From Rhodanobacteraceae bacterium (GTDB lineage: Bacteria > Pseudomonadota > Gammaproteobacteria > Xanthomonadales > Rhodanobacteraceae), in NCBI GenBank assembly GCA_030167125.1, contig CP126531.1, forward strand, positions 1,240,001 to 1,304,000: 64,000 bases of DNA, read 5' to 3'. The notes beneath the pieces are model-generated. The model was not told where the DNA came from. It worked only from the letters and a program-made list of their open reading frames with translations, and searched no databases. The position numbers were made by a program, and so were the translations under genes. Position 1 is the stretch's first letter. Each line of letters starts with the position of its first letter. This document shows positions 13,499-49,175 of the stretch, one piece after another.

Positions 13499-13784
<286 letters not shown>

Positions 13785-13810
13785 GCGCAAAGCAACGAGC
13801 CACCTCCATT

Positions 13811-13962
13811 GCGCTGCGCGCGCATTCCGGAAAAGACAAAGGCCATCCCCCTCAATCCCCCTTCGTTCCGAAGGGGGAAGAAAAGCAAAGGCCGCTGCGC
13901 TTTCATCCCCTTCCAAAGGAAGGGGGTCGGCGCGAAGCGCCGGGGGATGCAAACGGCGAGCG
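13811..13962. repeat. Palindromic repeat family A, first of two tandem copies
   Basis: About 150 bases repeated almost exactly at 14008-14157. It contains two hairpins, CCCCCTTCGTTCCGAAGGGGG and CCCCTTCCAAAGGAAGGGG. The outer part GGCCATCCCCCTCAATC pairs with the family element GATTGAGGGGGATGGCC. The same family is found in and after actB. Confidence 0.8.
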
Positions 13963-14007
13963 GCGCCACGCATTGACACGCAGCGCCAAGAACCATCCCC
14001 TCGTCCA

Positions 14008-14157
14008 CGCTGCGCGCGTTCCGGAAAAGACAAAGGCCATCCCCCTCAATCACCCTTCGTTCCGAAGGGGGAAGAAAAACGAAGGCCGCTGCGCTCTCAC
14101 CCCTTCCAAAGGAAGGGGGTCGGCGCGCAAGCGCCGGGAGGATGCAAACGGCGAGCG
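14008..14157. repeat. Palindromic repeat family A, second tandem copy
   Basis: A direct repeat of 13811-13962 with scattered substitutions, some of them in paired stem positions. About 45 unrelated bases separate the two copies. No coding potential is supported. Confidence 0.8.
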
Positions 14158-14171
14158 CGATGGCTTTTTTT

Positions 14172-14318
14172 TCGTCATCCCGGCGAAAGCCGGGACCCAG
14201 TGACTTTGCTCTTCGGCCTCGCCCAAAAGTCACTGGGTTGACTCGCGCCATCCCTGGCGCTCGCCCTTCGGGCCGCTGGGTTCCGGATCGCCGCTGCGCG
14301 GCGTCCGGAATGACGAGC
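14172..14318. repeat. Repeat family C (CCCAGTGACTTT inverted repeat)
   Basis: A 12-base perfect inverted repeat, CCCAGTGACTTT (14196-14207) and AAAGTCACTGGG (14226-14237), is framed by further stems and by CGTCATCC at one end and GGAATGACGAGCAAA at the other. A second full copy is at 31010-31137. It could double as a transcript end for the gluconate-dehydrogenase operon, whose last stop is at 14351. Confidence 0.8.
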
Positions 14319-14350
14319 AAATCAATTTCGCCTCGGCGATTTCTTCATCA

Positions 14351-15598
14351 CTATTGCGGCGCGCTGGCCAGCGTGCTCCGCAGCTTGGCGACGTCGCCGC
14401 TGGACACTTCGCCGCCGCGATTGCCCCAGGCGTTGCGGATGTACGTGGTGAGCGCGGCGACTTCGGCGTCGTCCAGCTTGCTGTTGAATGCGGGCATCAT
14501 CAGGCCGCTGGGTTTGGATTCAGTGACCGGCGAACGCGCGCCTTGCAGGATCACCGCGATCAGCAGTTCCGGCTGCGCCGCCTGCACCGCGGAACTCGCG
14601 CGCAGCGGCGGGAATGCGTTGGCGAGGCCCGCGCCGTCGTTCATGTGGCAGCCGGCGCAGTTGTCGACGTACAGCGCCGCGCCTTCCTGCATCACATCCT
14701 TGCCGGGTTCATTTGGCGTTTCGGGTTTCGGGCCTTCCAGCGACTTCAGGTACGTCGCCATCGCTTCGAGGTCGCGCTGCTTCAAATACTGCGTGGACGC
14801 CTGCACCACTTCCGCCATCGGGCCCGCCGCGGTCGCGTAGCGGTTCGATCCGGTGGCGAGGTATTCGACGATGTCCTCGCGCGTCCAGCTGCCCAGGCCG
14901 TCGCGTTCGCCCGCGCCGAGGTTGGGCGCGAACACGTGCTCGGCCATGCCGCCCTGCATCTTGCCGCCGGTGGGACCGCCCAGCATGTTCTTCGACGTGT
15001 GGCAGGCCGCGCAGTGGCCAGGGCCTTCCACGAGGTACGCGCCGCGATTCCATTCCGCGGACTCCTTCGGATCAGGCTCAAACTGTTTCGCATCGAGGTA
15101 CAGCTTGTCCCACACCGCCAGCACGCTGCGCATGCTGAAAGGCCAGCCGAGCTCGGGCGCGCGGTTGACCTGGCGCACCGGCTTGATCGTGTCGAGGTAG
15201 GCCTTGATCGCGTCGACGTCGCCGCGCGTCATGTGCGTGAACCACGGATACGGGAACGCGGGATACAGGCGCTCGCCCTTCTTGTCGATGCCTTCGTGCA
15301 TCGCGCGGTAGAACTCGTCCTCGCTCCACGCGCCGATGCCGGTGTCGGGATCGGGCGTGATGTTGGTCGAATAGATGATGCCGAACGGCGTCGGAACCGG
15401 ACGCCCGCCCGCGTATGGCTTGCCGCCTTCCGCGGTGTGGCAGGCTTCGCAATCGCCGGCGCGCGCGAGATAGCGGCCATCGCGGATGTTCGACCAGGTC
15501 TGGTCGGAGCGCGTCGGCGCATACACCTGCACTGCCGCGAACGCGGCACCGGCCGACGCCAGCACCAGCACGCCCGCAATGAGCAGCTTCGTGTTCAC
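14351..15598 (-). CDS. Triheme cytochrome c subunit of a gluconate/alcohol dehydrogenase-type complex
   Basis: 415 residues. A signal-anchor (NTKLLIAGVLVLASAGAAFA) precedes three cytochrome c domains with haem-binding motifs CEACH, CAACH and CAGCH. This is the standard form of the cytochrome subunit of membrane-bound gluconate 2-dehydrogenase, sorbitol and alcohol dehydrogenases, which passes electrons from the flavoprotein to ubiquinone or an oxidase. The GTG at 15598 was chosen because it overlaps the stop of the flavoprotein gene (GTGA) and the signal sequence starts there. It is the last gene of a three-gene operon. Confidence 0.9.
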   Translation of the reverse strand: MNTKLLIAGVLVLASAGAAFAAVQVYAPTRSDQTWSNIRDGRYLARAGDCEACHTAEGGKPYAGGRPVPTPFGIIYSTNITPDPDTGIGAWSEDEFYRAMHEGIDKKGERLYPAFPYPWFTHMTRGDVDAIKAYLDTIKPVRQVNRAPELGWPFSMRSVLAVWDKLYLDAKQFEPDPKESAEWNRGAYLVEGPGHCAACHTSKNMLGGPTGGKMQGGMAEHVFAPNLGAGERDGLGSWTREDIVEYLATGSNRYATAAGPMAEVVQASTQYLKQRDLEAMATYLKSLEGPKPETPNEPGKDVMQEGAALYVDNCAGCHMNDGAGLANAFPPLRASSAVQAAQPELLIAVILQGARSPVTESKPSGLMMPAFNSKLDDAEVAALTTYIRNAWGNRGGEVSSGDVAKLRSTLASAPQ

Positions 15599-17355
15599 GT
15601 CTGCACCAGCGGCTGCGGGTTCCTGATGTAACGCTTCATCGCGTCGGCGGCCCAGAACGCCAGCGCGCCGCCGGTGCCGGTCGGGTTGTAACCGGGGTTC
15701 TGCGGAAACACCGTGGAACCCATCACCCAGAGATTGGGCACGTCCCACGATTGCAGGAACGGATTGACGAAACTGGTGCGCGGATCATTGCCCATCGCCG
15801 CGCCGCCGGTGTTGTGCGTGGTCTGGTACGGGATGATCGAGTAGTGGCCCTTGCGCGGCTTGGGATTGATGCCGCGGTTCGGAATGGCCTTGGCGATATC
15901 CGTCGCGCGATCGGTGAGGAACTTCGACATCGCGTGTTCGTTGTCGTAGAAGTCGAAGGTCAGACGCAGCAGCGGGTTGCCATAGTCGTCGGTCCAGGTC
16001 GGATCAAGATCGAGATAGTTGTTGCGGTAGCTCATCATCCCGCCATGGCATTGCATGTGCGTGGAATAGAGGTAGTCGTCGTGCAGCGCCTTCTTCCAGC
16101 CGCCGCCCCACTTGGGCGTGCTTTCGGGCAGGTACTCCTGCAGGATCGGCCGGCCGCCGGTGTTCCACAGCGCGATGTAACCGCCGCCGATGAAGCCCTT
16201 GCCGGTGTGGTCGAAGTTGTCGCCGTTGAAATCATCGACGACTTGCCCGAGCGCGCCCGCGCCCATGAAGGGGTTCAGGCGTTCCTTGCAGGTGACGTTG
16301 ACGTCACTCGACAGTTGGTACGCATAGTTGCGCCCGACCACGCCCGTCTGCGACTGCGGGTCGTAGGGCGTGCCGATCTTCGACACCAGCAGCAGGTGCA
16401 CGTTGTGGTGCGCGAACGCGCACAGCACCACCATCTGCGCGGGCTGGATGAATTCGTTGCCAGCCGCATCGACGTACACCACGCCGGTCGCGCGCTTGCC
16501 GGTGGAATCGGTGAGCACGCGCGTCACGCTGCAATGCGTGCGGAAACTGAAATTGTCCTTCTTCAGCAGCACCGGCAGGATCGTGGTCTGCGGGCTGGCC
16601 TTGGAATAATTCGCGCAGCCGAACCATTCGCAATAACCGCAGAACGTGCACTGCCCCATCTGCACGCCGAGCGGATTCAGATACGGTTTGGACGTATTGG
16701 CGGCCGGCGCGGGAAACGGGTGCAGGCCGACTTCGCGTGCGGCCTTGTCGAACAGCACCGTCGCCGCGCTGCGCTTCAGCGGCGGCAGCGGATATTCACG
16801 GCGGCGCGGGCCTTCGAACGGATTGCCGCCGGGCTGGATCTTGCCGCCGATGTTGCCGGCCTTGCCCGAGATGCCGCACAGGTATTCCCACTTGTCGTAA
16901 TACGGTTCCAGTTGCTCGTAGGTGATGCCCCAGTCCTGGATCGTCATGTCGGCGGGGATCGCCTTCTTGCCGTAGCGCTGTTCGTTGTGGCTGCGCAGCT
17001 GGAAATCGGTGGGCAGGAAGCGCCAGTTCTGGCCGTTCCAGTGCACGCCCGCGCCGCCCACGCCCGCCGCCGGCAGGAACGATCCGAGTTCGCGCATCGG
17101 CAGCGCGAGCTGGTCCGGGCGATTGCGGAAGGTCAGCGTGCTGCGCTGGGTTTCCTCGAAGATCTGCTTACGCACCGCGTAGCGCAATTCGTCCTGGATG
17201 TGCGTGACCGAGAAATCCGGCACCGTGTCGCGCCAGCCGCCGCGCTCCAGCGCGAGCACATTGGCGCCGGCGTCCGTGAGTTCCTGCGCGATCACCGATG
17301 CCGTCCAGCCGAAGCCGACCAGCACCACGTCCACCTCGGGAAGTTTTTTTGCCAT
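15595..17355 (-). CDS. GMC-type flavoprotein subunit, gluconate 2-dehydrogenase-like
   Basis: 586 residues. The FAD-binding Rossmann motif is near the N-terminus (VVLVGFGWTASVIAQEL, then LALERGGW). The family active-site region near the C-terminus has HNTGGAAMGNDP and the second conserved block NLWVMGSTVFPQNPGYNPTGT. It oxidises a sugar, sugar acid or polyol in the periplasm; gluconate is the best-known substrate of the family, but the actual substrate is not proven. There is no signal peptide of its own, so export probably depends on the Tat-bearing small subunit. The start is ATG at 17355, in TGATG with the preceding stop; GTG at 17358 is possible. Confidence 0.9.
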   Translation of the reverse strand: MAKKLPEVDVVLVGFGWTASVIAQELTDAGANVLALERGGWRDTVPDFSVTHIQDELRYAVRKQIFEETQRSTLTFRNRPDQLALPMRELGSFLPAAGVGGAGVHWNGQNWRFLPTDFQLRSHNEQRYGKKAIPADMTIQDWGITYEQLEPYYDKWEYLCGISGKAGNIGGKIQPGGNPFEGPRRREYPLPPLKRSAATVLFDKAAREVGLHPFPAPAANTSKPYLNPLGVQMGQCTFCGYCEWFGCANYSKASPQTTILPVLLKKDNFSFRTHCSVTRVLTDSTGKRATGVVYVDAAGNEFIQPAQMVVLCAFAHHNVHLLLVSKIGTPYDPQSQTGVVGRNYAYQLSSDVNVTCKERLNPFMGAGALGQVVDDFNGDNFDHTGKGFIGGGYIALWNTGGRPILQEYLPESTPKWGGGWKKALHDDYLYSTHMQCHGGMMSYRNNYLDLDPTWTDDYGNPLLRLTFDFYDNEHAMSKFLTDRATDIAKAIPNRGINPKPRKGHYSIIPYQTTHNTGGAAMGNDPRTSFVNPFLQSWDVPNLWVMGSTVFPQNPGYNPTGTGGALAFWAADAMKRYIRNPQPLVQT

Positions 17356-18218
17356 CACAGGTTCCCGGCTGGCCAGACCTTGCCGGTCGTGGTGGTGAGC
17401 GCGTCGTAGTGCACCTTGGCCGGCATTTGCGCGTACTCACAGCCGGGTCCGCGGAAACGGCCGGTCGGCGAATCGCCGAAGCGGCACATCACCGGATTGG
17501 TGCCGCCGAGGCTGACGTAGGGCGCGTCGTAGGGCTTGCCGAACTTGTCGACGTCGTCGAGGTAGTTGTAGCGCGGTCCGTTGTAGCCGATCAGCTTCCA
17601 GCCCGCGAAGTCGCGGTTGCCGCCGTAGATCGGATCGGCGAGGAAGCCTTCCTTGGTGTTCTGCAGCAACAGGCCGAAGAAATCGCCCGGCTGGATTTCG
17701 CCGAGGTCGATCTTGCCGTCCTCGAGGTCGTGCAGGATCTTGTCCTGCTGATCGGGCTTCAGTTGCGCGAAGACATTGCCGAGGGTTTTCCTGCAGTGTT
17801 CGTCCACGCGCTGGATGCCGAGGCGATACACCTGCGCCGGCGTGAACGGCAACTGGTAGCCCTGCTCCGTGTCGCCCAGGTGGAAAGGCGGCTGCATGTA
17901 GATGCCGGTGGCCTGTCCGAACGGGCCGGCCAGCTGCGCATCGATGAACACGTCGACGCCCGCGTCGACGGCGCCCGCTCCCAGTGCATCCCTGGGGATC
18001 AGCCGATCGATCGCGGCGCGCACGAATTCGCGCTCGCCGGGCTGGAGGAAGCGCGGCGCCACCACTTCGCGCGTCGAGTCGCCGCCGCCGCAGCCGCCGA
18101 GCAGCAGGCTGGACGATATGAAGATGGCGCTGCCGAGCAGGAATGTCCTGCGGGACGGGGAATCGCACCGTTCCGTCGTGCATGCCCGATCGAGCCCGAT
18201 GTTCCCGCGCTGTTCCAT
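17355..18218 (-). CDS. Gluconate 2-dehydrogenase subunit 3 family protein (Tat lipoprotein)
   Basis: 287 residues. The N-terminus carries a twin-arginine signal (SPSRRTFLLG) running into a hydrophobic stretch and the lipobox-like LLLGGC, so the protein is probably exported folded and lipid-anchored. The body matches the small subunit of membrane gluconate dehydrogenases (LQPGEREFVRAAIDRLIP, GYNGPRYNYL). It likely carries the flavoprotein across by hitch-hiking and anchors the complex. The ATG at 18218 begins just before the Tat motif; longer frames to 18311 have no support. First gene of the operon, diverging from the actA operon. Confidence 0.88.
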   Translation of the reverse strand: MEQRGNIGLDRACTTERCDSPSRRTFLLGSAIFISSSLLLGGCGGGDSTREVVAPRFLQPGEREFVRAAIDRLIPRDALGAGAVDAGVDVFIDAQLAGPFGQATGIYMQPPFHLGDTEQGYQLPFTPAQVYRLGIQRVDEHCRKTLGNVFAQLKPDQQDKILHDLEDGKIDLGEIQPGDFFGLLLQNTKEGFLADPIYGGNRDFAGWKLIGYNGPRYNYLDDVDKFGKPYDAPYVSLGGTNPVMCRFGDSPTGRFRGPGCEYAQMPAKVHYDALTTTTGKVWPAGNL

Positions 18219-18441
18219 GCGCCGCCGTTCGTGAGGACGTCGGTGATTCTGCGAGGCGTTCGGTGAAAGCCGCGTCAACCGCCGGAGAATTTTTCCGTCC
18301 TCCTCTCTCACGGCATGTCGACATTGCGCGGCAGAGACTAGGCAGCGATGCGCGCGGGTGCGGTGCCGCCTGCGGCGCGCATCGGCACAGGCGCGTTGAT
18401 CGATCGTTCGACGCTGGTCACTTCACCGGGCAGGGAGGCGC

Positions 18442-19089
18442 GTGGCGCAGCTCTTTTCCAAGCGTTTCACGTTGTGGTTCCAGTTGTGCGTGCTGGCGGT
18501 GCTGATCAGCTTCGTGTCGTGGGTGTTCCTGTGGCGCTGGGCGATGGCCGATCCGGTCGGCGTGCACGATCCCGTCGAGCAGGTCGTGCCCTTCAGCCAC
18601 AAGCACCACGTCGGCGACGACGGCATCGACTGCCGCTATTGCCATCAATCGGTCGAACAGTCGGCGTTCGCAGGCATTCCGCCGCTCTCGACCTGCATGA
18701 CCTGCCACTCGCAGTTGTACACGCAGCAGAAGATGCTGGCGCCGCTGGTCACCGCGTTCGACAGCGGCGTGCCATTGCATTGGCAGCGCGTCTACAAGCT
18801 GCCCGATTTCGTCTATTTCAACCACGGCATCCATATCGCCAAGGGCATCGGCTGCGCGAGTTGCCACGGCCCGGTCGACGAGATGCCGCTGATGGCGCGC
18901 AACGAACACCTGACGATGCAGTGGTGTCTTGCGTGTCATCGCGATCCCGCCAGACACCTGCGCCCGCGCGACGAGGTGTTCAACCTGCACTGGCACGCGA
19001 AGGACCAGTTGGCGCTGGGCGCGGTGCTGCTGCGCAAGTACCACATCGACACGCGCCGGCTCACGGATTGTTCGACATGTCATCGATGA
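18442..19089 (+). CDS. actA: Alternative complex III subunit A, pentaheme cytochrome c
   Basis: 215 residues. One N-terminal membrane anchor (FTLWFQLCVLAVLISFVSWV) is followed by a periplasmic domain with five haem motifs: CRYCH, CMTCH, CASCH, CLACH and CSTCH. Distal His ligands occur in FSHKHH and FNHGIH. This is the expected form of ActA, the pentaheme subunit of the quinol:cytochrome c oxidoreductase that replaces bc1. The start is GTG at 18442, six bases after GGGAGG. It is the first gene of a run of twelve that ends with the oxidase genes. The 223-base gap upstream is shared with the divergent dehydrogenase operon. Confidence 0.93.
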   Translation: MAQLFSKRFTLWFQLCVLAVLISFVSWVFLWRWAMADPVGVHDPVEQVVPFSHKHHVGDDGIDCRYCHQSVEQSAFAGIPPLSTCMTCHSQLYTQQKMLAPLVTAFDSGVPLHWQRVYKLPDFVYFNHGIHIAKGIGCASCHGPVDEMPLMARNEHLTMQWCLACHRDPARHLRPRDEVFNLHWHAKDQLALGAVLLRKYHIDTRRLTDCSTCHR

Positions 19090-22000
19090 TGCCAATCGCG
19101 AATGATGCTCTCGAGGATCGCGTCGATCCCGCTGCGATCCGCGCGAAGCTTGCGGGCCAGCGCGGGCCGCGCTTCTGGCGATCGCTGGAGGAATTGGCGG
19201 ACTCCGAAGGCTTTCGCGCATGGCTGCGTTCTGAACATCCACAACTCGCGGAAGCCGCTTCGCTGGATCGCCGTGATTTCCTGAAGCTGCTCGGCGCATC
19301 GCTGGCCTTGGCCGGACTCGCCGGCTGCAGCCATCCGCCACGCAGCCAGATCGTGCCCTACGTGCACAAACCCGTCGGCCAGGTCGACGGCCTGCCGCGC
19401 TACTTCGCGACCACGTTGACGCGCCAAGGTTATGCACACGGCGTGTTGGTGCGCGACGACATGGGCCGCCCGACGAAAGTGGAAGGCAACCCGCAGCACC
19501 CGGCCAGCCTCGGCAGCACCGGCATCTTCGCGCAGGCGGCGATCCTGCAACTGTGGGATCCGGACCGCTCGCAATCGGTGATGCACGGCAATTCGGTGGC
19601 GACGTGGGACGACTTCGCGGCGGCGCTCACCGAACGCGTCGCGCGTTTCCACGCCAACGGCGGCGAAGGATTGCGCCTGTTGATCGCGCCCACGACTTCG
19701 CCCACCTTGACCGCGCAACTCGCTGCGTTCGAAAAGCGGTTCCCGAATGCGCGCTGGCACGTCGATGATCCCGCCGGCATCGCAGGTCGAAGCGAAGTCG
19801 CACGCTGTCATTTCGATCGCGCGAAGGTGATCGTGTCGCTGGATGCGGATTTCCTTTCCGATCCCGCGGCCGGCGTGCGCCGTTCGCGCGACTTCATCGC
19901 GGCGCGCGATCCGGAAGCCGGCGCGATGTCGCGACTGTACGTGATCGAGCCGACGCCCAGCGTCACCGGCGGCATGGCCGATCACCGCTTGCCCATTGCG
20001 TCGCGCGACATCGAAGCCTTTGCAGCGCAGCTAGCGGCGCGAATCGGCGCGGGCGGAGCCGCAGGTTCGAATTCCGCGCACGCGCGCTGGATCGATGCGA
20101 CCGCAAAGGATCTTGCCGTCAACCGTGGCGCTTCCATCGTCGTCGCCGGCAATACGCAACCGGAATCGGTGCACGCGCTCGCACGCGCAATGAACGCGTC
20201 GCTCGGCAACGTGGGCCGCACCATCGAATACACGCCATCGCCTGTGGCGATGCCGACGAATGGCGATGGCTCGCTGGCCACGCTGGTTGACGACATGCAC
20301 GCGGGCAAGGTCGATACGCTGCTGATGCTGGGCGTCAATCCCGTGTACGACGCGCCCGCGGACGTGGACTTCATCGCGGCAATGCGCAAGGTCCCGCATA
20401 CGCTTCACCTCGGCTTGTACGACGACGAGACAGGCCAACTCGCCGCATGGCATGCGCCGCAGGCGCACGAACTGGAAGCCTGGGGCGACGCACTCGCGTT
20501 CGACGGCACGATCAGCCTCGCGCAGCCGCTGATCGCACCCTTGTACGACGGCCACTCCGCCATCGAAACGATGGCGCTGCTACTGGGCGATCCGGTGGAT
20601 GGGCATACCCTGATTCGGCGGCAGTGGCAGTCGCAGCTTGCGGACGACAAGGCGTGGAACGAGGCGTTGCAGGTTGGTGTCGTGAACATCCCAGCGCGCC
20701 CTCGGCGCGACAGCATCCCCCCGCCGCTACGCGGCGACCCCCTTCCTGCGGAAGGGGGTGGAGCTTTCTTCCCCCTTCCAAAGGAAGGGCGGAGCGCAAG
20801 CGAACGCGCGCGAAGCGCGACGAGGGGGATGGCTTCTGCTGCAAATCGCGACATCCCCCCGCGCCTTCGTGCCGAAAGGGGTGAAAAGCTGGAACTGCTG
20901 TTCCGCCCCGACCCCACCATCGGCTACGGCGAATGGTCCAACAACGGCTGGCTGCAGGAACTGCCCAAGCCGCTGACGCAACTTACCTGGGACAACGTGG
21001 TGCTGGTGTCGCCTGCGCTGGCGAAACAGAAAGGCCTCGACAATTTCGATGGCGTGGAACTGCGCAGCGGCGGACGCTCGGTGCGCGGTGCGGTGTGGAT
21101 CATGCCCGGCCAAGCCGAACGCAGCGTCACGATCCATTTCGGCTACGGCCGCAGGCACGCGGGTCGCGTCGCCGACGGACAAGGCTTCGACGCATACGCG
21201 TTGCGCACGAAGCATTCGCCGTGGTCAGCGGCCAACCTGGAAATCATCCCGACCGGCGAGCGCTACGAGATCGCGCAGACGCAACACCACTTCGCGATGG
21301 AAGGCCGCGATCCGTTGCGCGTCGGTACGTTGGATGAATTCAAATCCAACCCGAAATTCGCAACAGCGCACGACCGCTACGGTTCCAAGCCTCCCAGCCT
21401 CTATCCCGACGAACCGCCGGCCGATTACGCCTGGGGCATGAGCATCGACCTCAATGCCTGCATCGGCTGCAAGGCCTGCACGATCGCCTGCCAGGCCGAG
21501 AACAACATTCCCATCGTCGGCAAGGTGCAGGTGCGGCGCGGGCGCGAGATGCACTGGATACGCGTCGATCGCTACTACGACGGCGAAGCCGCGAACCCCA
21601 AAAGTTACAGCCAGCCCGTGCCTTGCATGATGTGCGAGCACGCGCCCTGCGAGGTGGTGTGCCCGGTCGACGCCACCGTGCACAACGCCGAGGGCCTGAA
21701 CGTGCAGGTGTACAACCGCTGCGTCGGCACGCGCTTCTGTTCCAACAACTGCCCGTACAAGGTGCGGCGCTTCAACTTCATGCAGTACGCCGACAAGACG
21801 ACGCCGCAGTACATGGCGATGCGCAACCCGGAAGTGACAGTGCGGCGGCGCGGCGTGATGGAGAAGTGCACGTACTGCATCCAGCGCATCGAGACCGCGC
21901 ACATCGAGGCGGACAAGGCCAACCGCCGCATTGCCGACGGCGAAATCGTCACCGCCTGCCAGGCCGCGTGTCCGACGCAGGCGATCCGCTTTGGCGACAT

Positions 22001-22145
22001 TGCCGACAAAGAATCCGGCGTTTCGAAGGCCAAGGCCTCGCCGCGCAACTACGCGATGCTCAACGAACTCGGCACGCGCCCGCGCACCACCTACCTCGCC
22101 CGCATCCGCAATCCGAATCCGGCGTTGGAGGAAGGCGAGCCATGA
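19077..22145 (+). CDS. actB: Alternative complex III subunit B (molybdopterin-oxidoreductase-like plus Fe-S domain) with in-frame repeat
   Basis: 1022 residues. A Tat-like signal lies inside the N-terminus (DRRDFLKLLGASLALAG, then AGC). A large domain resembling molybdopterin oxidoreductases follows, as in other ActB proteins that have lost the cofactor, and then a ferredoxin domain with four cysteine clusters (CIGCKACTIAC, CMMCEHAPCEVVC, CVGTRFCSNNCP, CTYC ... CQAACP). It carries electrons from the quinol site toward the cytochrome subunits. The ATG at 19077 overlaps the actA stop; 19086 is an alternative. Odd feature: codons about 545-603 (20710-20886) are encoded by palindromic repeat family A and give a Pro/Arg/Gly-rich segment foreign to the family, just before KLELLFRPDPT. 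Confidence 0.93.
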   Translation: MSSMMPIANDALEDRVDPAAIRAKLAGQRGPRFWRSLEELADSEGFRAWLRSEHPQLAEAASLDRRDFLKLLGASLALAGLAGCSHPPRSQIVPYVHKPVGQVDGLPRYFATTLTRQGYAHGVLVRDDMGRPTKVEGNPQHPASLGSTGIFAQAAILQLWDPDRSQSVMHGNSVATWDDFAAALTERVARFHANGGEGLRLLIAPTTSPTLTAQLAAFEKRFPNARWHVDDPAGIAGRSEVARCHFDRAKVIVSLDADFLSDPAAGVRRSRDFIAARDPEAGAMSRLYVIEPTPSVTGGMADHRLPIASRDIEAFAAQLAARIGAGGAAGSNSAHARWIDATAKDLAVNRGASIVVAGNTQPESVHALARAMNASLGNVGRTIEYTPSPVAMPTNGDGSLATLVDDMHAGKVDTLLMLGVNPVYDAPADVDFIAAMRKVPHTLHLGLYDDETGQLAAWHAPQAHELEAWGDALAFDGTISLAQPLIAPLYDGHSAIETMALLLGDPVDGHTLIRRQWQSQLADDKAWNEALQVGVVNIPARPRRDSIPPPLRGDPLPAEGGGAFFPLPKEGRSASERARSATRGMASAANRDIPPRLRAERGEKLELLFRPDPTIGYGEWSNNGWLQELPKPLTQLTWDNVVLVSPALAKQKGLDNFDGVELRSGGRSVRGAVWIMPGQAERSVTIHFGYGRRHAGRVADGQGFDAYALRTKHSPWSAANLEIIPTGERYEIAQTQHHFAMEGRDPLRVGTLDEFKSNPKFATAHDRYGSKPPSLYPDEPPADYAWGMSIDLNACIGCKACTIACQAENNIPIVGKVQVRRGREMHWIRVDRYYDGEAANPKSYSQPVPCMMCEHAPCEVVCPVDATVHNAEGLNVQVYNRCVGTRFCSNNCPYKVRRFNFMQYADKTTPQYMAMRNPEVTVRRRGVMEKCTYCIQRIETAHIEADKANRRIADGEIVTACQAACPTQAIRFGDIADKESGVSKAKASPRNYAMLNELGTRPRTTYLARIRNPNPALEEGEP
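20710..20886. repeat. Palindromic repeat family A inserted in frame in actB
   Basis: About 177 bases made of one and a half copies of the family seen at 22187-22292: a half element ending CTTCCTGCGGAAGGGGGTG, then a whole one with CCCCCTTCCAAAGGAAGGG and GAGGGGGATGGCTTCTGC. It is read through without a stop in the actB frame, and the flanking protein sequence is normal on both sides. Exact boundaries are approximate. Confidence 0.8.
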
Positions 22146-22186
22146 GGGCCTCACTTCTCCGCGGCGAGAAATGGTGCGAGCTTCGC

Positions 22187-22292
22187 CTCCCCCTTCCAAA
22201 GGAAGGGGGATCGAGGGGGATGGCTTTTGCACCGCAAAGCGGCATCCCCCCGCGCCTGCGGCGCGACTCCCTTCCTTCGGAAGGGGGTGAGA
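22187..22292. repeat. Palindromic repeat family A between actB and actC
   Basis: The element starts CCTCCCCCTTCCAAAGGAAG and ends CCTTCGGAAGGGGGTGAGAA, filling most of the 184-base gap between actB and actC. Most neighbouring gene junctions in this operon overlap by four bases, so the gap itself probably results from the insertion. Confidence 0.8.
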
Positions 22293-22329
22293 ACCGCCAC
22301 GGCGCCGGCGCGGCAGAAGGAAAGCTGCC

Positions 22330-23703
22330 ATGAGCGCCGTGCTGCCCCGCGACACGCTGCCGCCGGTGATCGCGCCGGACGAAACCAACGCGTCGATCAG
22401 CGCGAAGATCAGCGACGCGACGCTGCGTCGCCCCACCGGCTGGCTGTGGCTGGGCGGATTCGGGTTGTCGCTGCTGCTGTGTGGTGTGCTGTTCGTCGGC
22501 ACCTGCTGGCTGCTGTACGCGGGCATAGGCATCTTCGGCCTGAACATCCCGGTCGCTTGGAGCTTCTTCATTGCGAACTACGTGTGGTGGATCGCAATCG
22601 GCATGGGCGGCACCTTCATCTCCGCCGCGATGTACCTGACGCGGCAGGGCTGGCGCAATTCGATCAACCGCTTCGCCGAGGCGATGACGGTGTTCGCGGT
22701 GTCGGTGTCGGGCATCTTCCCGATCCTGCACTTGGGGCGCCCGTGGTTTTTCTATTGGCTATTCCCCTACCCCGACATCATGAACCTGTGGCCGCAGTGG
22801 CGCAGTTCGCTGGAATGGGATTTCTGGGCGATCCTCGCGTACCTGATCGTGTCGATCCTGTATTGGTACATCGGGATGCTTCCCGATTTGGCGACGCTGC
22901 GCGACCGCGCGCCCACGCGCGCGCAGGCGCGCTTCTACGGGCTGCTGTCGCTGGGCTGGCGCGGCGAAGCGCGGCACTGGATGCGCTTCGAACAATTCAA
23001 CCTGATCACCGCCGGCCTCGCGGTGACGCTGGTGTTCTCCGTGCACAGCATGGTGGCGCTGGATTTTTCCGAAGGCCTGGTGCCCGGCTGGCACGAGACG
23101 ATCTTTCCGCCGTTCTTCGTCGCCGGCGCGCTGTTCTCGGGCTTCGCGATGGTGCTGGTACTCGGCATCCCGCTGCGCAAGTGGTTCGGCTTCGAGGCGT
23201 ACCTCACCGAACGCCACATCGTGAACATGGCCAAGATGATGCTGGCCGCGGGACTGTTCGTCGACTACAGCTACTTCTCGGAAATCTTCACCGCGTTCTG
23301 GTCGATGGACAAGTACGACATGGCGATGACGATGCATCGCGTGGTCGGCCCTTACGCGTGGGTGTTCTGGGGCACGGTGCTGTTCAACGTGCTGCTGATC
23401 CAGTTGCTGTGGCTCCCGCGCGTGCGACGCAGCGCCGACGCTGTATTCGTGATCGCGCTGGGCGTGCTGGTCGGCATGTGGCTGGAGCGATTCATGCTGG
23501 TCGTCACCAGCCTGTACGAGGACTTCCTGCCGTCCGCGTGGGGCATGTTCTGGCCGACCGTGTGGGACCTCCTGTTCCTGATCGGCTCGATCGGCCTGTT
23601 CTTCTTCATGTTCCTGTTGTTCACGCGCATGCTGCCGATGCTGTCGATGTTCGAGTTGCGCAAGCTGGCTGCATCGTTGCAGCGCAAGGAGGCGCGGCCA
23701 TGA
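22330..23703 (+). CDS. actC: Alternative complex III subunit C, NrfD-like quinol-site membrane protein
   Basis: 457 residues with about ten transmembrane helices. After a polar N-terminus the first helix begins WLWLGGFGLSLLLCGVLF; IANYVWWIAIGMGGTFISA and ISGIFPILHLGR-type elements (here VSGIFPILHLGRPWFFYW) match the NrfD/PsrC family. In alternative complex III this subunit forms one of the two quinol-handling membrane modules and may conduct protons. AAGGA lies seven bases before the ATG. Its stop overlaps the actD start (ATGA). Confidence 0.93.
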   Translation: MSAVLPRDTLPPVIAPDETNASISAKISDATLRRPTGWLWLGGFGLSLLLCGVLFVGTCWLLYAGIGIFGLNIPVAWSFFIANYVWWIAIGMGGTFISAAMYLTRQGWRNSINRFAEAMTVFAVSVSGIFPILHLGRPWFFYWLFPYPDIMNLWPQWRSSLEWDFWAILAYLIVSILYWYIGMLPDLATLRDRAPTRAQARFYGLLSLGWRGEARHWMRFEQFNLITAGLAVTLVFSVHSMVALDFSEGLVPGWHETIFPPFFVAGALFSGFAMVLVLGIPLRKWFGFEAYLTERHIVNMAKMMLAAGLFVDYSYFSEIFTAFWSMDKYDMAMTMHRVVGPYAWVFWGTVLFNVLLIQLLWLPRVRRSADAVFVIALGVLVGMWLERFMLVVTSLYEDFLPSAWGMFWPTVWDLLFLIGSIGLFFFMFLLFTRMLPMLSMFELRKLAASLQRKEARP

Positions 23704-24242
23704 GCGTGCCGCTGCACGGTTTGCTGGCGGAATTTTCCGAAGCGGAGCATCTGCTCGCGGCGGTGCGGCGTGCGCGCGATGAGGGTTACTACGCGGCGTG
23801 CATCGAAGCGTACTCGCCCTACCCCGTCGAAGGCCTGGACAAGGCGCTGGACGCACGCCACCACTGGGTGCCGTTCTGGATGCTGATCGGCGCGATCGGC
23901 GGCGGCGCGTTCACCTATTGGCTGGAATGGTGGTCGGCGGCGGTGAACTATCCGATCAACGTGGGCGGCCGGCCGACATTCTCGTGGCCCGCATTCATTC
24001 CGCCCGCGGTGGAGATGACGATCCTGTGGGCGGTGCTGCTGGGCGTGCTGGCCGTGTTGTACGGCGCGCGCCTGCCGCGCGTCCACCATCCGCTGTTCGA
24101 AAGCCGTGAATTCGAACGCGCGACCAGCGACCACTTCTTCCTGCTGGTGCGCGGCAACGATCCGTCGTTCGATGCGCAACGCACGCAGGCGTTCTTGGAA
24201 AGCCTCTCGCCGCTGTCGGTCGTGGAGGTGGCGGAAGAATGA
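23700..24242 (+). CDS. actD: Alternative complex III subunit D
   Basis: 180 residues. A cytosolic N-terminal segment with the family feature LLAEFSEAEHLLAAVRRARDEGY (a DUF3341 domain) is followed by PYPVEGLDKAL and two membrane helices (FWMLIGAIGGGAFTYWLEWW and VEMTILWAVLLGVLAVLYGA) and ends in a domain with HFFLLVRGNDPSFD. All three parts match ActD. It is a structural subunit with no cofactor. Four-base overlaps link it to actC and actE. Confidence 0.92.
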   Translation: MSVPLHGLLAEFSEAEHLLAAVRRARDEGYYAACIEAYSPYPVEGLDKALDARHHWVPFWMLIGAIGGGAFTYWLEWWSAAVNYPINVGGRPTFSWPAFIPPAVEMTILWAVLLGVLAVLYGARLPRVHHPLFESREFERATSDHFFLLVRGNDPSFDAQRTQAFLESLSPLSVVEVAEE

Positions 24243-25174
24243 ACGCCCGCATGCCCGCGAGTTTTTCCCTCACCCTAGCCCTCTCCCGCGAGCGGGAGAG
24301 GGGACAAAAGCGAGCGCGATGCTGTTCCTTCCCCCGCTTGCGGGGGAAGGTGGCCGCAGGCCGGATGGGGGGAATACTCGCGATATGCGCGATCGCACTG
24401 GCGCTTGCCGGCTGCGAACGCGGCATGCACGAGATGTACGACCAGCCGAAGTACAAGCCGCTGACGTCGAGTCCGTTGTGGCCGGACGGCAATTCGTCGC
24501 GTCCGCACGTGCCCGGCACGCAGCCCTTTTCCGCGGGCGCCCTGGCCGGCGTTTCGAGTGGACGCCTGGATCGTGTCGCGCTGGTGCCGCCGGCCGGTCC
24601 TGTGACGGGTGTCGACGCGAACGGCAAGCCGCTCGCGCAGGCCGGCGCCGCCGCCGCGCCCGGCTATTCCAACCCACTGTCGATCACGCCGCAACTGCTG
24701 GCACGCGGCCAACAACGCTTCGACATCTATTGCGCGCCCTGCCACAGCCGCGTGGGCGACGGCGACGGCATGATCGCCGAGCGCGGCTTCCCGCATCCGC
24801 CGAGTTACCACACGGACGCGCTGCGCGACGCGCCGGACAGCCACTTCTACCAAGTGATCACCGACGGTTACGGCGTGATGTATTCCTACGCCGACCGCGT
24901 GTCGCCGCATGATCGCTGGGCGATCGTCGCGTATATCCGCGCCTTGCAGTTGAGCCAGCATGCGCCGAAGTCGGATTTGAGTGCAGACGATCTCGCGAGG
25001 CTCGCCCCCATCCGACCTTCGGCCACCGTTGCTAGGCTCGCGCATCCTGCGCTCGCCAAGCAACCCGGCCCTCAACATCCTGCTTCGGGCGTTCGCCAGC
25101 GCGCGAACGGCCCCCAGCCGTTCGCAAACGCGCTGGCTCACCCCCGCAAGCGGGGGAAGGAGAAAACCCGATGA
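24239..25174 (+). CDS. actE: Alternative complex III subunit E, monohaem cytochrome c lipoprotein, repeat-modified at both ends
   Basis: The frame is 311 codons from the ATG that overlaps the actD stop (ATGA). A hydrophobic lipoprotein signal (GGILAICAIALALAGC) begins only at codon 44; everything before it is encoded by a palindromic repeat. An internal ATG at 24365 sits right before the signal, with GGAAGGTGG from the repeat about 11 bases upstream, and may be the start now used (269 residues). The core has family features HEMYDQPKYKPL, one haem site CAPCH and a Met-ligand region GVMYSYADRV. The last 45 or so codons (after LARLAP) are again repeat-derived, ending exactly at the ATGA overlap with actF. 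It hands electrons to the oxidase. Confidence 0.9.
   Translation: MNARMPASFSLTLALSRERERGQKRARCCSFPRLRGKVAAGRMGGILAICAIALALAGCERGMHEMYDQPKYKPLTSSPLWPDGNSSRPHVPGTQPFSAGALAGVSSGRLDRVALVPPAGPVTGVDANGKPLAQAGAAAAPGYSNPLSITPQLLARGQQRFDIYCAPCHSRVGDGDGMIAERGFPHPPSYHTDALRDAPDSHFYQVITDGYGVMYSYADRVSPHDRWAIVAYIRALQLSQHAPKSDLSADDLARLAPIRPSATVARLAHPALAKQPGPQHPASGVRQRANGPQPFANALAHPRKRGKEKTR
24262..24364. repeat. Palindromic repeat family B at the 5' end of actE
   Basis: Contains the stem CCCTCTCCCGC ... GCGGGAGAGGG and a second hairpin CCCCCGCTTGCGGGGG, then GGTGGCCGCAGGCCGGATGGG. It separates the coupled start of actE from the signal-peptide codons and offers a Shine-Dalgarno-like GGAAGG for a new start at 24365. 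Confidence 0.8.
25002..25166. repeat. Mosaic palindromic repeat at the 3' end of actE
   Basis: Starts GCCCCCATCCGACCTTCGGC, the inverted counterpart of the end of the 24262 element, and finishes with CCCCCGCAAGCGGGGGAAGG. The middle holds other short inverted segments (CCGTTCGC near 25120, GGGCGTTCGCC near 25087). It is translated as the actE C-terminus, and its last GGGGGAAGGAG may be the ribosome-binding site of actF. Confidence 0.7.
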
Positions 25175-26698: not shown

Positions 26699-27705
26699 AC
26701 CACGAGCGCCGGCTTTTGGCTCCCTCTCCCCCAAACGGCTTTTTGTTTGGGGGAGAGGGCTGGGGTGAGGGGGCGAACCTTCCCGTTCACCTCAACGGTA
26801 TGGCTCACCGCGAGGTCAACCCCCTCACCCTGCCCTCTCCCCCATCGAGAAGCGATGGGGGAGAGGGTTCAAACGCGCGCGCACTCGTCGCGCTTGCGGG
26901 CGTGCTGGCGCTCGCGTTGTTACTGGTGGCGAATGCTTGCTTTGCCGCGACGCCGGCGTCCCACGTCCGCGCCCCGCCCGACTTGCACCAGCGCGTCGGC
27001 TTCGATCAGGAACTCGGCGCGCAGGTGCCTCTCGATGCGGTCTTCAACGACGCGAACGGCAATCCCGTAACACTGCGCAACCTGCTGCACGGCAAGCCCG
27101 TGCTGCTGGTACCAGGCTACTTCACCTGCAAGACGCTGTGCAGCATCGTGCGTACGGGCGTCGCCAACGGCGTGCGCGGCAGCGGCTTCGCGCCGGGCCA
27201 GCAATTCGACGTGGTGCTGGTCAGCATCGATCCGAAGGAGACGCCCGAAGATGCGCGTAACGCGCAGCGCATCGACGCGGCGAACCATCCCGATGCCGGT
27301 GTCGCGCAATGGCATTACCTCACCGGCCCGCAAACGTCGATCGCGCCGTTGATGCACGCGATCGGCTTCCGCTACCTGTTCGATGCGCGCAGCGACCAGT
27401 TCGACCACGCGACGGGCGTGGTGGTGCTGACCCCGGAGGGACGGATTTCGCAGTACCTGTTCGGTGTGAAGTTCCCGGCCGAAACGTTGCGGCTGGCGTT
27501 GTTCAATGCGTCGAACGGACACGTCGGCAACCTGATCGACCGGCTGGTGCTGCTGTGCTGCCAGTACGACACGTCCACCGGCCGCTACACCTTGACGATC
27601 CACCGGATCATGCAAGGACTCGGCATTTCCTTCGCGGTATTGCTGGCGGGCTTCGTCGTATTCCTGCGCCGCGGCGAGATGCAACGCAAGCGGAGGGAAG
27701 CATGA
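26695..27705 (+). CDS. Sco/SenC copper chaperone with repeat-encoded N-terminal extension
   Basis: 336 residues. The Sco thioredoxin-like fold starts around LHQRVGFDQELGAQVPLD and has the copper-binding C-x3-C in FTCKTLCSIV and the distal His in DQFDHATG. Sco delivers or reduces copper for the Cu-A site of oxidase subunit II, encoded next. A signal/anchor (ARALVALAGVLALALLLVA) and a second C-terminal membrane segment (GLGISFAVLLAGFVVFL) are present. Between the coupled start (ATGA with the previous stop) and the anchor lie about 58 codons encoded by palindromic repeat family B, including an in-frame ATG at 26800. The extension is foreign to the family. Confidence 0.9.
   Translation: MNHERRLLAPSPPNGFLFGGEGWGEGANLPVHLNGMAHREVNPLTLPSPPSRSDGGEGSNARALVALAGVLALALLLVANACFAATPASHVRAPPDLHQRVGFDQELGAQVPLDAVFNDANGNPVTLRNLLHGKPVLLVPGYFTCKTLCSIVRTGVANGVRGSGFAPGQQFDVVLVSIDPKETPEDARNAQRIDAANHPDAGVAQWHYLTGPQTSIAPLMHAIGFRYLFDARSDQFDHATGVVVLTPEGRISQYLFGVKFPAETLRLALFNASNGHVGNLIDRLVLLCCQYDTSTGRYTLTIHRIMQGLGISFAVLLAGFVVFLRRGEMQRKRREA
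26719..26870. repeat. Palindromic repeat family B, two hairpins, in frame within sco
   Basis: Hairpin 1 has arms CCCTCTCCCCCAAAC and GTTTGGGGGAGAGGG; hairpin 2 has arms CCCTCTCCCCCATCG and CGATGGGGGAGAGGG. Hairpin 1 is the same as one near pgm (about 49000). The spacer contains GGGTGAGGGGG and CCCCCTCACCC in opposite orientation. There is no stop codon in the sco frame. Confidence 0.85.
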
Positions 27706-37797: not shown

Positions 37798-37896
37798 TCC
37801 GTTCGTCCTGAGCGTAGGCGCGCAGCGCCGAAGTCGAAGGACACGGGATGCGCTTCGACTTCGCTTGCATTCGCAAGCTACGCTCAGCGCGAACGG
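37798..37896. repeat. Palindromic repeat family E (CGAAGTCGAAG type)
   Basis: Outer arms CCGTTCGTCCTGAGCGTAG and CTACGCTCAGCGCGAACGG are near mirror images, and inner arms GAAGTCGAAG and CTTCGACTTC pair perfectly. This type of element is commonly dispersed in related genomes. It lies between two genes of the second oxidase operon and may modulate mRNA stability. Confidence 0.7.
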
Positions 37897-48997: not shown

Positions 48998-49144
48998 CCC
49001 CTCTCCCCCAAACGGCACTTTCGTTTGGGGGAGAGGGCCAGGGTGAGGGGAGATTCATTCGGTGCGACTGGGAGATTCCAGCAATGCGAGACCCATTCCC
49101 CCTCACCCCAACCCTCTCCCCCGGGCAAAGCTCGGGGGAGAGGA
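48998..49144. repeat. Palindromic repeat family B between pgi and pgm
   Basis: Hairpin 1 has arms CCCTCTCCCCCAAAC and GTTTGGGGGAGAGGG, the same stem as in the sco gene. Hairpin 2 has arms CCTCTCCCCCGGGC and GCTCGGGGGAGAGG with one G-T mismatch. The edge of the element supplies the GGGGAAGG before pgm. Confidence 0.85.
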
Positions 49145-49175
49145 AGACAAGCGCGCGATGCGCGTGAAAGCAACA

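Follow-up and report, generated by a model that had tools for sequence, protein, structure and literature searches.

In-frame palindromic repeats in a linker of ActB from a Rhodanobacteraceae genome and its relatives

Introduction

The Rickettsia palindromic elements (RPEs) are described as palindromic sequences of about 100–150 bp that occur in several families per genome, many of them between genes and some in frame within conserved genes (PMC10969869, PMC2229807). Nearly half of the RPEs of R. conorii are reported to fall in genomic open reading frames (ORFs), each with a conserved peptide (PMC10969869, PMC2229807). REPs have likewise been found inside ORFs in many bacteria, sometimes two per gene, and it was suggested that these intragenic insertions may be neutral owing to their position in flexible linkers or loops (PMC3733652). 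In-frame fusions between genes and small repeats of the ERIC, YPAL, and QMITE kinds have also been described, with ERIC occurring in several conserved genes (PMC2229807, PMC5896051). As these sources present them, in-frame repeats in genes, and the idea that they are tolerated by flexible linkers, are already known.

Here, we examine a 64,000-nucleotide stretch of DNA from a Rhodanobacteraceae bacterium (the window; its genome is referred to as G000), in which a first-pass annotation had proposed that a palindromic repeat is translated within actB, and had likened the case to the RPEs. As an analogy in the way of working, that likeness is apt.

The ActB linker and its repeat array

The features of actB, in window coordinates, are as follows.

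19077..22145, + strand: actB, 1022 aa, the molybdopterin-like plus Fe-S subunit of alternative complex III (ORF and PDB matches).
20682..20888, + strand: ActB linker, residues 536–604, between a helix (524–533) and a strand (605–610).
20687..20887, + strand: repeat-derived DNA, an array of family A palindromic elements in an open frame, under unbroken cover by repeat-library matches.
About 20687..20712, + strand: degenerate right-half copy, whose global alignment to the 22242–22270 copy was equalled by 1 of 2000 shuffles.
20713..20758, + strand: right-half copy with two hairpins, 85% identical to 22242–22289 and to 13904–13950 (reverse).
20771..20887, + strand: longer family A copy, with a left hairpin (20771–20789), central arms (about 20820–20860), and a decayed right end.

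The actB product matched the ActB chains 8k9e_B, 6lod_B, 6f0k_B, and 6btm_B in a phmmer search (E values from 7.3e-295 to 4.6e-131), and the top five PDB hits in a fold search with its predicted model were also ActB chains. Its linker is 69 aa long in this genome, as against about 30 aa in distant homologues, and is repeat DNA almost end to end: BLAST against a repeat library built from this genome and from G010, a second species of the genus—much of that library having been gathered by similarity to the ActB insert—covered 20687–20887 (201 bp, about 67 codons) without a gap, in 91 hits. The in-frame repeat that was first placed at 20700–20895, with about 59 codons, is real, and slightly larger than first drawn.

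In an AlphaFold model of ActB (94 sequences, mean pLDDT 70, pTM 0.74), residues 544–601 are predicted to lack secondary structure, at a pLDDT below 50, which agrees with the suggestion of the first-pass annotation that a loop there may tolerate the insert. Low pLDDT is weak evidence for disorder in this linker, because parts of the Fe-S half (e.g., 848–932) also score low. That annotation had also put the segment near the junction before the Fe-S half, a placing that proved to be off, since the next domain is molydopterin-binding-like (Pfam match at 643–700, below the family cut-off) and Fe-S matches begin only near 790 (Pfam residue numbers being those of the AlphaFold model plus 4).

The reading frame is uninterrupted from 19077 to 22145, and ActB sequence picks up again at LELLFRPDPT (20889). 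By itself this is unsurprising, given that 46% of 5000 simulated 57-codon stretches with the dinucleotide make-up of the insert were open; 26 of 29 family A copies (47–157 bp) are also open in the ActB frame, and copies are open in most frames. For these two reasons the open frame was rejected as evidence on its own. Because the gene is conserved and coding-like on either side of the segment, we infer that the segment itself is translated.

The array (20712–20884) is predicted to form a strong RNA fold (z = −6.15; none of 200 shuffles was equally stable). Very stable predicted hairpins of this kind would suit a segment that is absent from the mature protein, whether bypassed by ribosomes, spliced out, or cleaved. 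A segment that is removed could do without an open frame, but the cases verified in DNA are open in the coding frame, and Rfam gave no match at gathering score in window 13700–22500; we regard removal as very improbable.

Repeat copies elsewhere in the genome

Five further repeats in the window are listed here; homologues of ActB are numbered from P0001 in the order of a protein search described below.

22180..22292, + strand: complete family A element in the actB–actC spacer, between genes, with a different coding frame on either side.
13818..13962, − strand: family A element between genes, first of a tandem pair.
14012..14157, − strand: other member of that tandem pair, a family A element with 94% identity to its partner.
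14160..14340, + strand: family B (CGTC-REP-like) repeat, whose relatives make up the ActB linker in G010 and, as judged from protein matches, in other homologues.
26712..26867, + strand: family D repeat between genes, translations of which match the linkers of P0002, P0015, P0019, and P0021.

Family A is present as dozens of copies in this genome, mostly intergenic, and the ActB insert has at least 63 matches genome-wide among the matches listed (40 of 177 first-look candidates scored). The intergenic copies first reported at 22187–22292 and 13811–14157 were confirmed at 22180–22292 and 13818–14157; a complete copy (22187–22292) is about 106 bp long. In G010, the actB stop and the actC start overlap in ATGA, with no spacer between them. 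At window 22138–22337, the 8 bases GCCATGAG stand at both ends of the extra actB–actC stretch, as a target duplication might leave them. Within the genus, the complete intergenic copy found matches in 10 of 16 genomes and none in the other six (up to 40 candidates scored per genome), and copy number varies widely, with at least 52–64 family A matches in each of G000, G005, G007, and G009. A search for a transposase partner with PF01797 gave two matches in G000, both below the cut-off and neither convincing for family A, and none in G001–G003, though G003 has at least 13 family A matches.

The position of copies relative to genes was judged by a codon score trained on seven gene pieces of the window, the best frame being compared on both flanks of each site. 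Long ORFs around other family A copies had looked plentiful; codon scoring put nearly all of these copies between genes. Apart from L031, 30 loci with family A sites were compared in this way, some of which overlap. One frame runs across both flanks in ActB and in L058, and also across a 31-bp hit in the overlapping loci L047/L059, which was open on read-through. At L050, L037/L046, and L060 the flanks share a frame that contains stops, and the remaining family A sites change frame or strand.

A 464-kb sample (20 stretches of 20 kb plus the window) contained 44 multi-copy repeat blocks, three of which lie in one open coding frame. Five of the 44 passed the preset same-frame test, three with stops and two open (ActB and one in L198), and three others were same-frame but low-scoring, two with stops and one open (L206 7209–7259). 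This third in-frame block came from a read-through of same-frame sites that were at first passed over because of a low score, stops, or a short hit, other than those already displayed with their stops; the read-through yielded two true in-frame copies (in an RmlD-like gene and a CT_C_D protein) and five sites with stops (L050, L037/L046, L060, L198 9332–9385, and L205 1213–1261). Repeats are mostly kept out of genes.

Two more multi-copy blocks of the window (37811–37895 and 48999–49153) have flanks that change coding frame and likely lie between genes. At 24239–24400, a lipoprotein-like ORF of the act operon begins upstream of its signal peptide and crosses a multi-copy repeat (24327–24370); its called start may be wrong.

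ActB linkers in relatives

From the ActB protein search, the best 120 of 7999 hits were taken and divided into near (P0001–P0044) and far (P0045–P0120) homologues at a border chosen after the linkers had been inspected. Within this set of 120, the linker is at least 42 aa long in 40 of 44 near homologues vs 4 of 76 far ones, and measures 28–38 aa in 72 of the 76. Among 233 family genomes, 21 (own genome included) match ActB at E ≤ 1e-20; the seven outside the genus that were read cleanly by pattern have linkers of 30–32 aa, and outside the genus the stretch between the two matched halves is at most about 110 bp. In the comparison suggested by the first-pass annotation, the segment thus proved to be missing from more distant ActB. 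The same residues in unrelated homologues, which it had named as the observation that would count against it, did not appear: among the best 120 of 7999 homologues, similar linkers are confined to the closest relatives.

Linker peptides were then compared with a repeat library of 97 pieces (25 kb). At E ≤ 1e-5, matches were obtained for 24 of 44 near linkers, none of 76 far ones, and 14 of 2200 shuffled near linkers; at 1e-3, the counts were 33 of 44, 3 of 76, and 196 of 2200, and with another E-value base, also at 1e-3, they were 33 of 44, 4 of 76, and 71 of 880. Some of the 20 near linkers above 1e-5 may represent families missing from the library; the linker peptide types of P0005, P0010, and P0025 gave only weak matches to DNA repeats.

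Family labels, assigned by hand from linker hits with E up to about 3e-5, were A for P0001, P0003, P0004, P0007, and P0012; D for P0002 and P0021; D followed by B for P0015 and P0019; and B for 16 others. P0028 (E 8e-8, a match with stops) was left without a label, and P0009 (family B by eye, E 2.9e-4) is without a label in the 45-row tree described below and counted as short in the 56-row tree. Assignment to a family was mostly made at the protein level, and linker DNA was examined for ActB of G000 and G010. P0044 is the ActB of G010, as judged by its identical linker sequence. The DNA of that linker belongs to family B and has 11 matches in G010, counting itself, as well as 42 in G000. One and the same ActB site therefore holds family A in one species and family B in another of the same genus. 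Because relatives carry different repeats there, the spot is likely to be a flexible linker that tolerates any in-frame repeat.

No preferred encoded peptide was seen across the linkers. One strand of family B encodes SSSRRKPGPSD (window 14172–14210) and, in another register, PAKAGTQ (from 14180); the family is read as VIPAKAG in ActB of G010 and, at the protein level, as SSPRRKPGPSD in P0009 and P0018. Reading of families A and B in different frames argues against selection for a given peptide.

The distribution of labels was followed on a careful tree (IQ-TREE, LG+G4, 45 rows, linker removed), from which the shorter proteins P0008, P0019, and P0020 and all homologues from P0049 on were excluded. 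Leaving aside rows without a label, this tree requires a minimum of 11 changes between the states A, B, D, D+B, and short. With a set of six labels it takes 22 changes where shuffled labels take 24.2, and 33 of 200 shuffles reach as low a count; on a quickly built tree of 56 rows, the corresponding numbers of changes were 13 and 25, with 2 of 200 shuffles as low. Since the labels are hardly more clustered than shuffled ones, they are hardly inherited at this distance, with few exceptions such as P0043 and P0044, both B. Branches in the nearest clade of the 45-row tree are weakly resolved; when only starred branches of the tree are relied on, the changes still required number 8 for B, 5 for short, and 2 each for A and D.

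These results bear on the proposal of one ancestral, RPE-like in-frame insertion into ActB that was inherited and later diverged. P0001, P0003, and P0004 have common family A peptides read in one frame, which makes a degree of inheritance likely, and several ThiL homologues form a group with one family A reading. A single insertion is contradicted, for the whole family, by the family B DNA at the same place in G010, and D and D+B linkers stand among A linkers on the tree, albeit around a poorly resolved clade; we consider it quite unlikely.

An artefact of assembly or gene calling was weighed as well, given that repeats break short-read assemblies and that 4 of the 6 nearest C-half fragments (P0121–P0126) have their start within the linker or immediately behind it. 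All four lack an initial Met and two carry the label "partial", which makes contig edges likely, though some may be split genes. The genome of the window is a single contig of 3.28 Mb (99.85% complete), the flanks carry a coding signal in one frame, and other assemblies show repeats at the same place, which makes an artefact hardly credible. The C-half search for a split or bypassed ActB gave no clear split gene; closed-frame copies would escape notice in a protein database, which shows mainly open genes.

ThiL and other genes with in-frame repeats

Repeats were found in frame in four further genes.

G000:C1:74487-75551: thiL (L058/L241), with a family A repeat in frame between the AIRS and AIRS_C domains.
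L198:2441-5692, − strand: type ISP restriction-modification enzyme, 1084 aa, with an in-frame family B repeat inside the Type_ISP_C match and a further in-frame repeat-like peptide, both in the C-terminal domain.
L206:6923-7777, + strand: CT_C_D (carboxyltransferase C and D subdomain) protein, 284 aa, with an in-frame family D repeat.
L047:1-1164, − strand: RmlD-like gene, in which a decayed piece of family A lies in frame.

ThiL repeats the pattern seen in ActB. Of its 120 listed homologues, 17 (that of G000 included) have a linker of at least 30 aa, and library matches at 1e-5 were found for 13 of these 17 vs none of the 103 shorter ones, the ThiL piece of G000 not being counted as a hit. 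In the genus, thiL DNA was found in 15 of 16 genomes and the linker could be read in 11 (G008, G010, G012, and G015 were unread by the pattern): it consists of family A in three species (G000, G009, and G007), of family B in a fourth (G004; 90% identity to a copy in G010), and of a repeat of 7-base units in G011, and six genomes gave no library match. The G011 linker (L249) is partly a tandem array of the unit GGGACTC, which is also present in repeat stretches of G000. As for the other genes, the family D repeat of the CT_C_D protein, whose sole Pfam match is CT_C_D, is 75% identical to the window copy at 26712–26867 and lies just ahead of the main matched stretch, and the surroundings of the L047 hit match family A elsewhere (74 bp, 82%, E 9.7e-13).

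Family A is read in different frames in the two core genes, as SIPPPLRGDPLPAEGG in ActB and ESHPPRFPFLRKGE in ThiL. This difference, together with the unrelated peptides that unrelated repeats in different frames provide, speaks against the idea that the inserts are useful, i.e., that repeats supply a selected linker, for example one rich in Pro and Arg. Persistence of inserts in conserved genes and the greater length of most near linkers would fit such usefulness; P0039 and P0034 have kept short linkers within the same clades, and we judge it unlikely that the peptides were selected.

Proposed origin and significance

The reading that we favor, and hold to be probably correct, is that the ActB linker, which joins two folded domains and is predicted to be disordered, is a neutral sink built from dispersed palindromic repeats, in which only in-frame outcomes survive. 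Dispersed repeats would enter linkers as they enter spacers (e.g., the element between actB and actC in G000), moving as mobile repeats by transposition or by recombination between repeats. Outcomes that close the frame or break the fold would be lost, and the others would drift, stack, and replace each other. Of the clean insertion into a loop that was first envisaged, the predicted lack of structure stands; the insert is an array, several unrelated repeats occupy the site in relatives, and a linker of the ancestral type, about 30 aa long, has been largely replaced.

A broader and more tentative suggestion, which we think somewhat doubtful, is that, in this lineage, certain inter-domain linkers of core genes act as landing pads, in which whole linkers are swapped repeat for repeat by insertion into, or recombination with, a resident repeat. 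If so, new disordered protein segments would continually be made from dispersed noncoding repeats, a bacterial counterpart of exonisation.

In-frame repeats in genes are known mostly as separate cases; the two core genes described here each have a single linker that was filled on several occasions. Fillings by unrelated repeats, in different frames and across related species, amount to a natural replicate experiment in which the tolerance of a site can be told apart from the usefulness of a peptide, and from which the rate and rules of noncoding repeats becoming protein could be measured. At a practical level, such repeats within the linkers of genes may interrupt short-read assemblies and lead gene callers astray.

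Comparison with known systems

The likeness to RPEs concerns the way of working. Family A is palindromic, with a complete copy of the length given above and a strong predicted stem-loop fold, and has in-frame copies inside conserved genes (ActB, ThiL, and the RmlD-like gene), while other families lie in frame in the type ISP enzyme and the CT_C_D protein. The differences are that no conserved peptide with one preferred frame is found, the frames differing between genes; that the host, judging by homologue names, belongs to the Rhodanobacteraceae, a gammaproteobacterial family; and that, relative to what the RPE sources describe, few copies lie inside genes (3 of 44 blocks) and a single site of orthologous genes is occupied by now one, now another of several unrelated families.

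REPs of the GTAG/CGTC kinds are marked by a tag beside a stem, which in the CGTC type has 8–9 bp and a loop of 4–5 nt. By eye, the family B linker of G010 shows CGTC followed by a stem with a GAAA loop, whereas family A has neither a GTAG nor a CGTC tag. A hallmark of GTAG-type REPs is an associated RAYT-type Y1_Tnp transposase, for which the genome of the window offers the two sub-cut-off PF01797 matches. The portions consulted of PMC3733652 do not describe unrelated repeats that alternate at a single linker among orthologues. The ERIC, YPAL, and QMITE examples, as far as their sources present them, concern mostly gene ends, hypothetical proteins, and new loci (PMC2229807, PMC5896051), whereas the copies described here are internal to conserved enzymes, and relatives show refilling of the same linker.

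Searches of the open-licence PMC literature turned up no paper on turnover of repeats in ActB or ThiL, and the portions consulted of PMC10969869, PMC2229807, PMC5896051, PMC5656822, PMC3733652, and PMC2635572 do not describe recurrent filling of one linker by several families in orthologous core genes. Relative to these sources, the new part is the recurrent turnover, in several families and several frames, at one linker of orthologous core genes.
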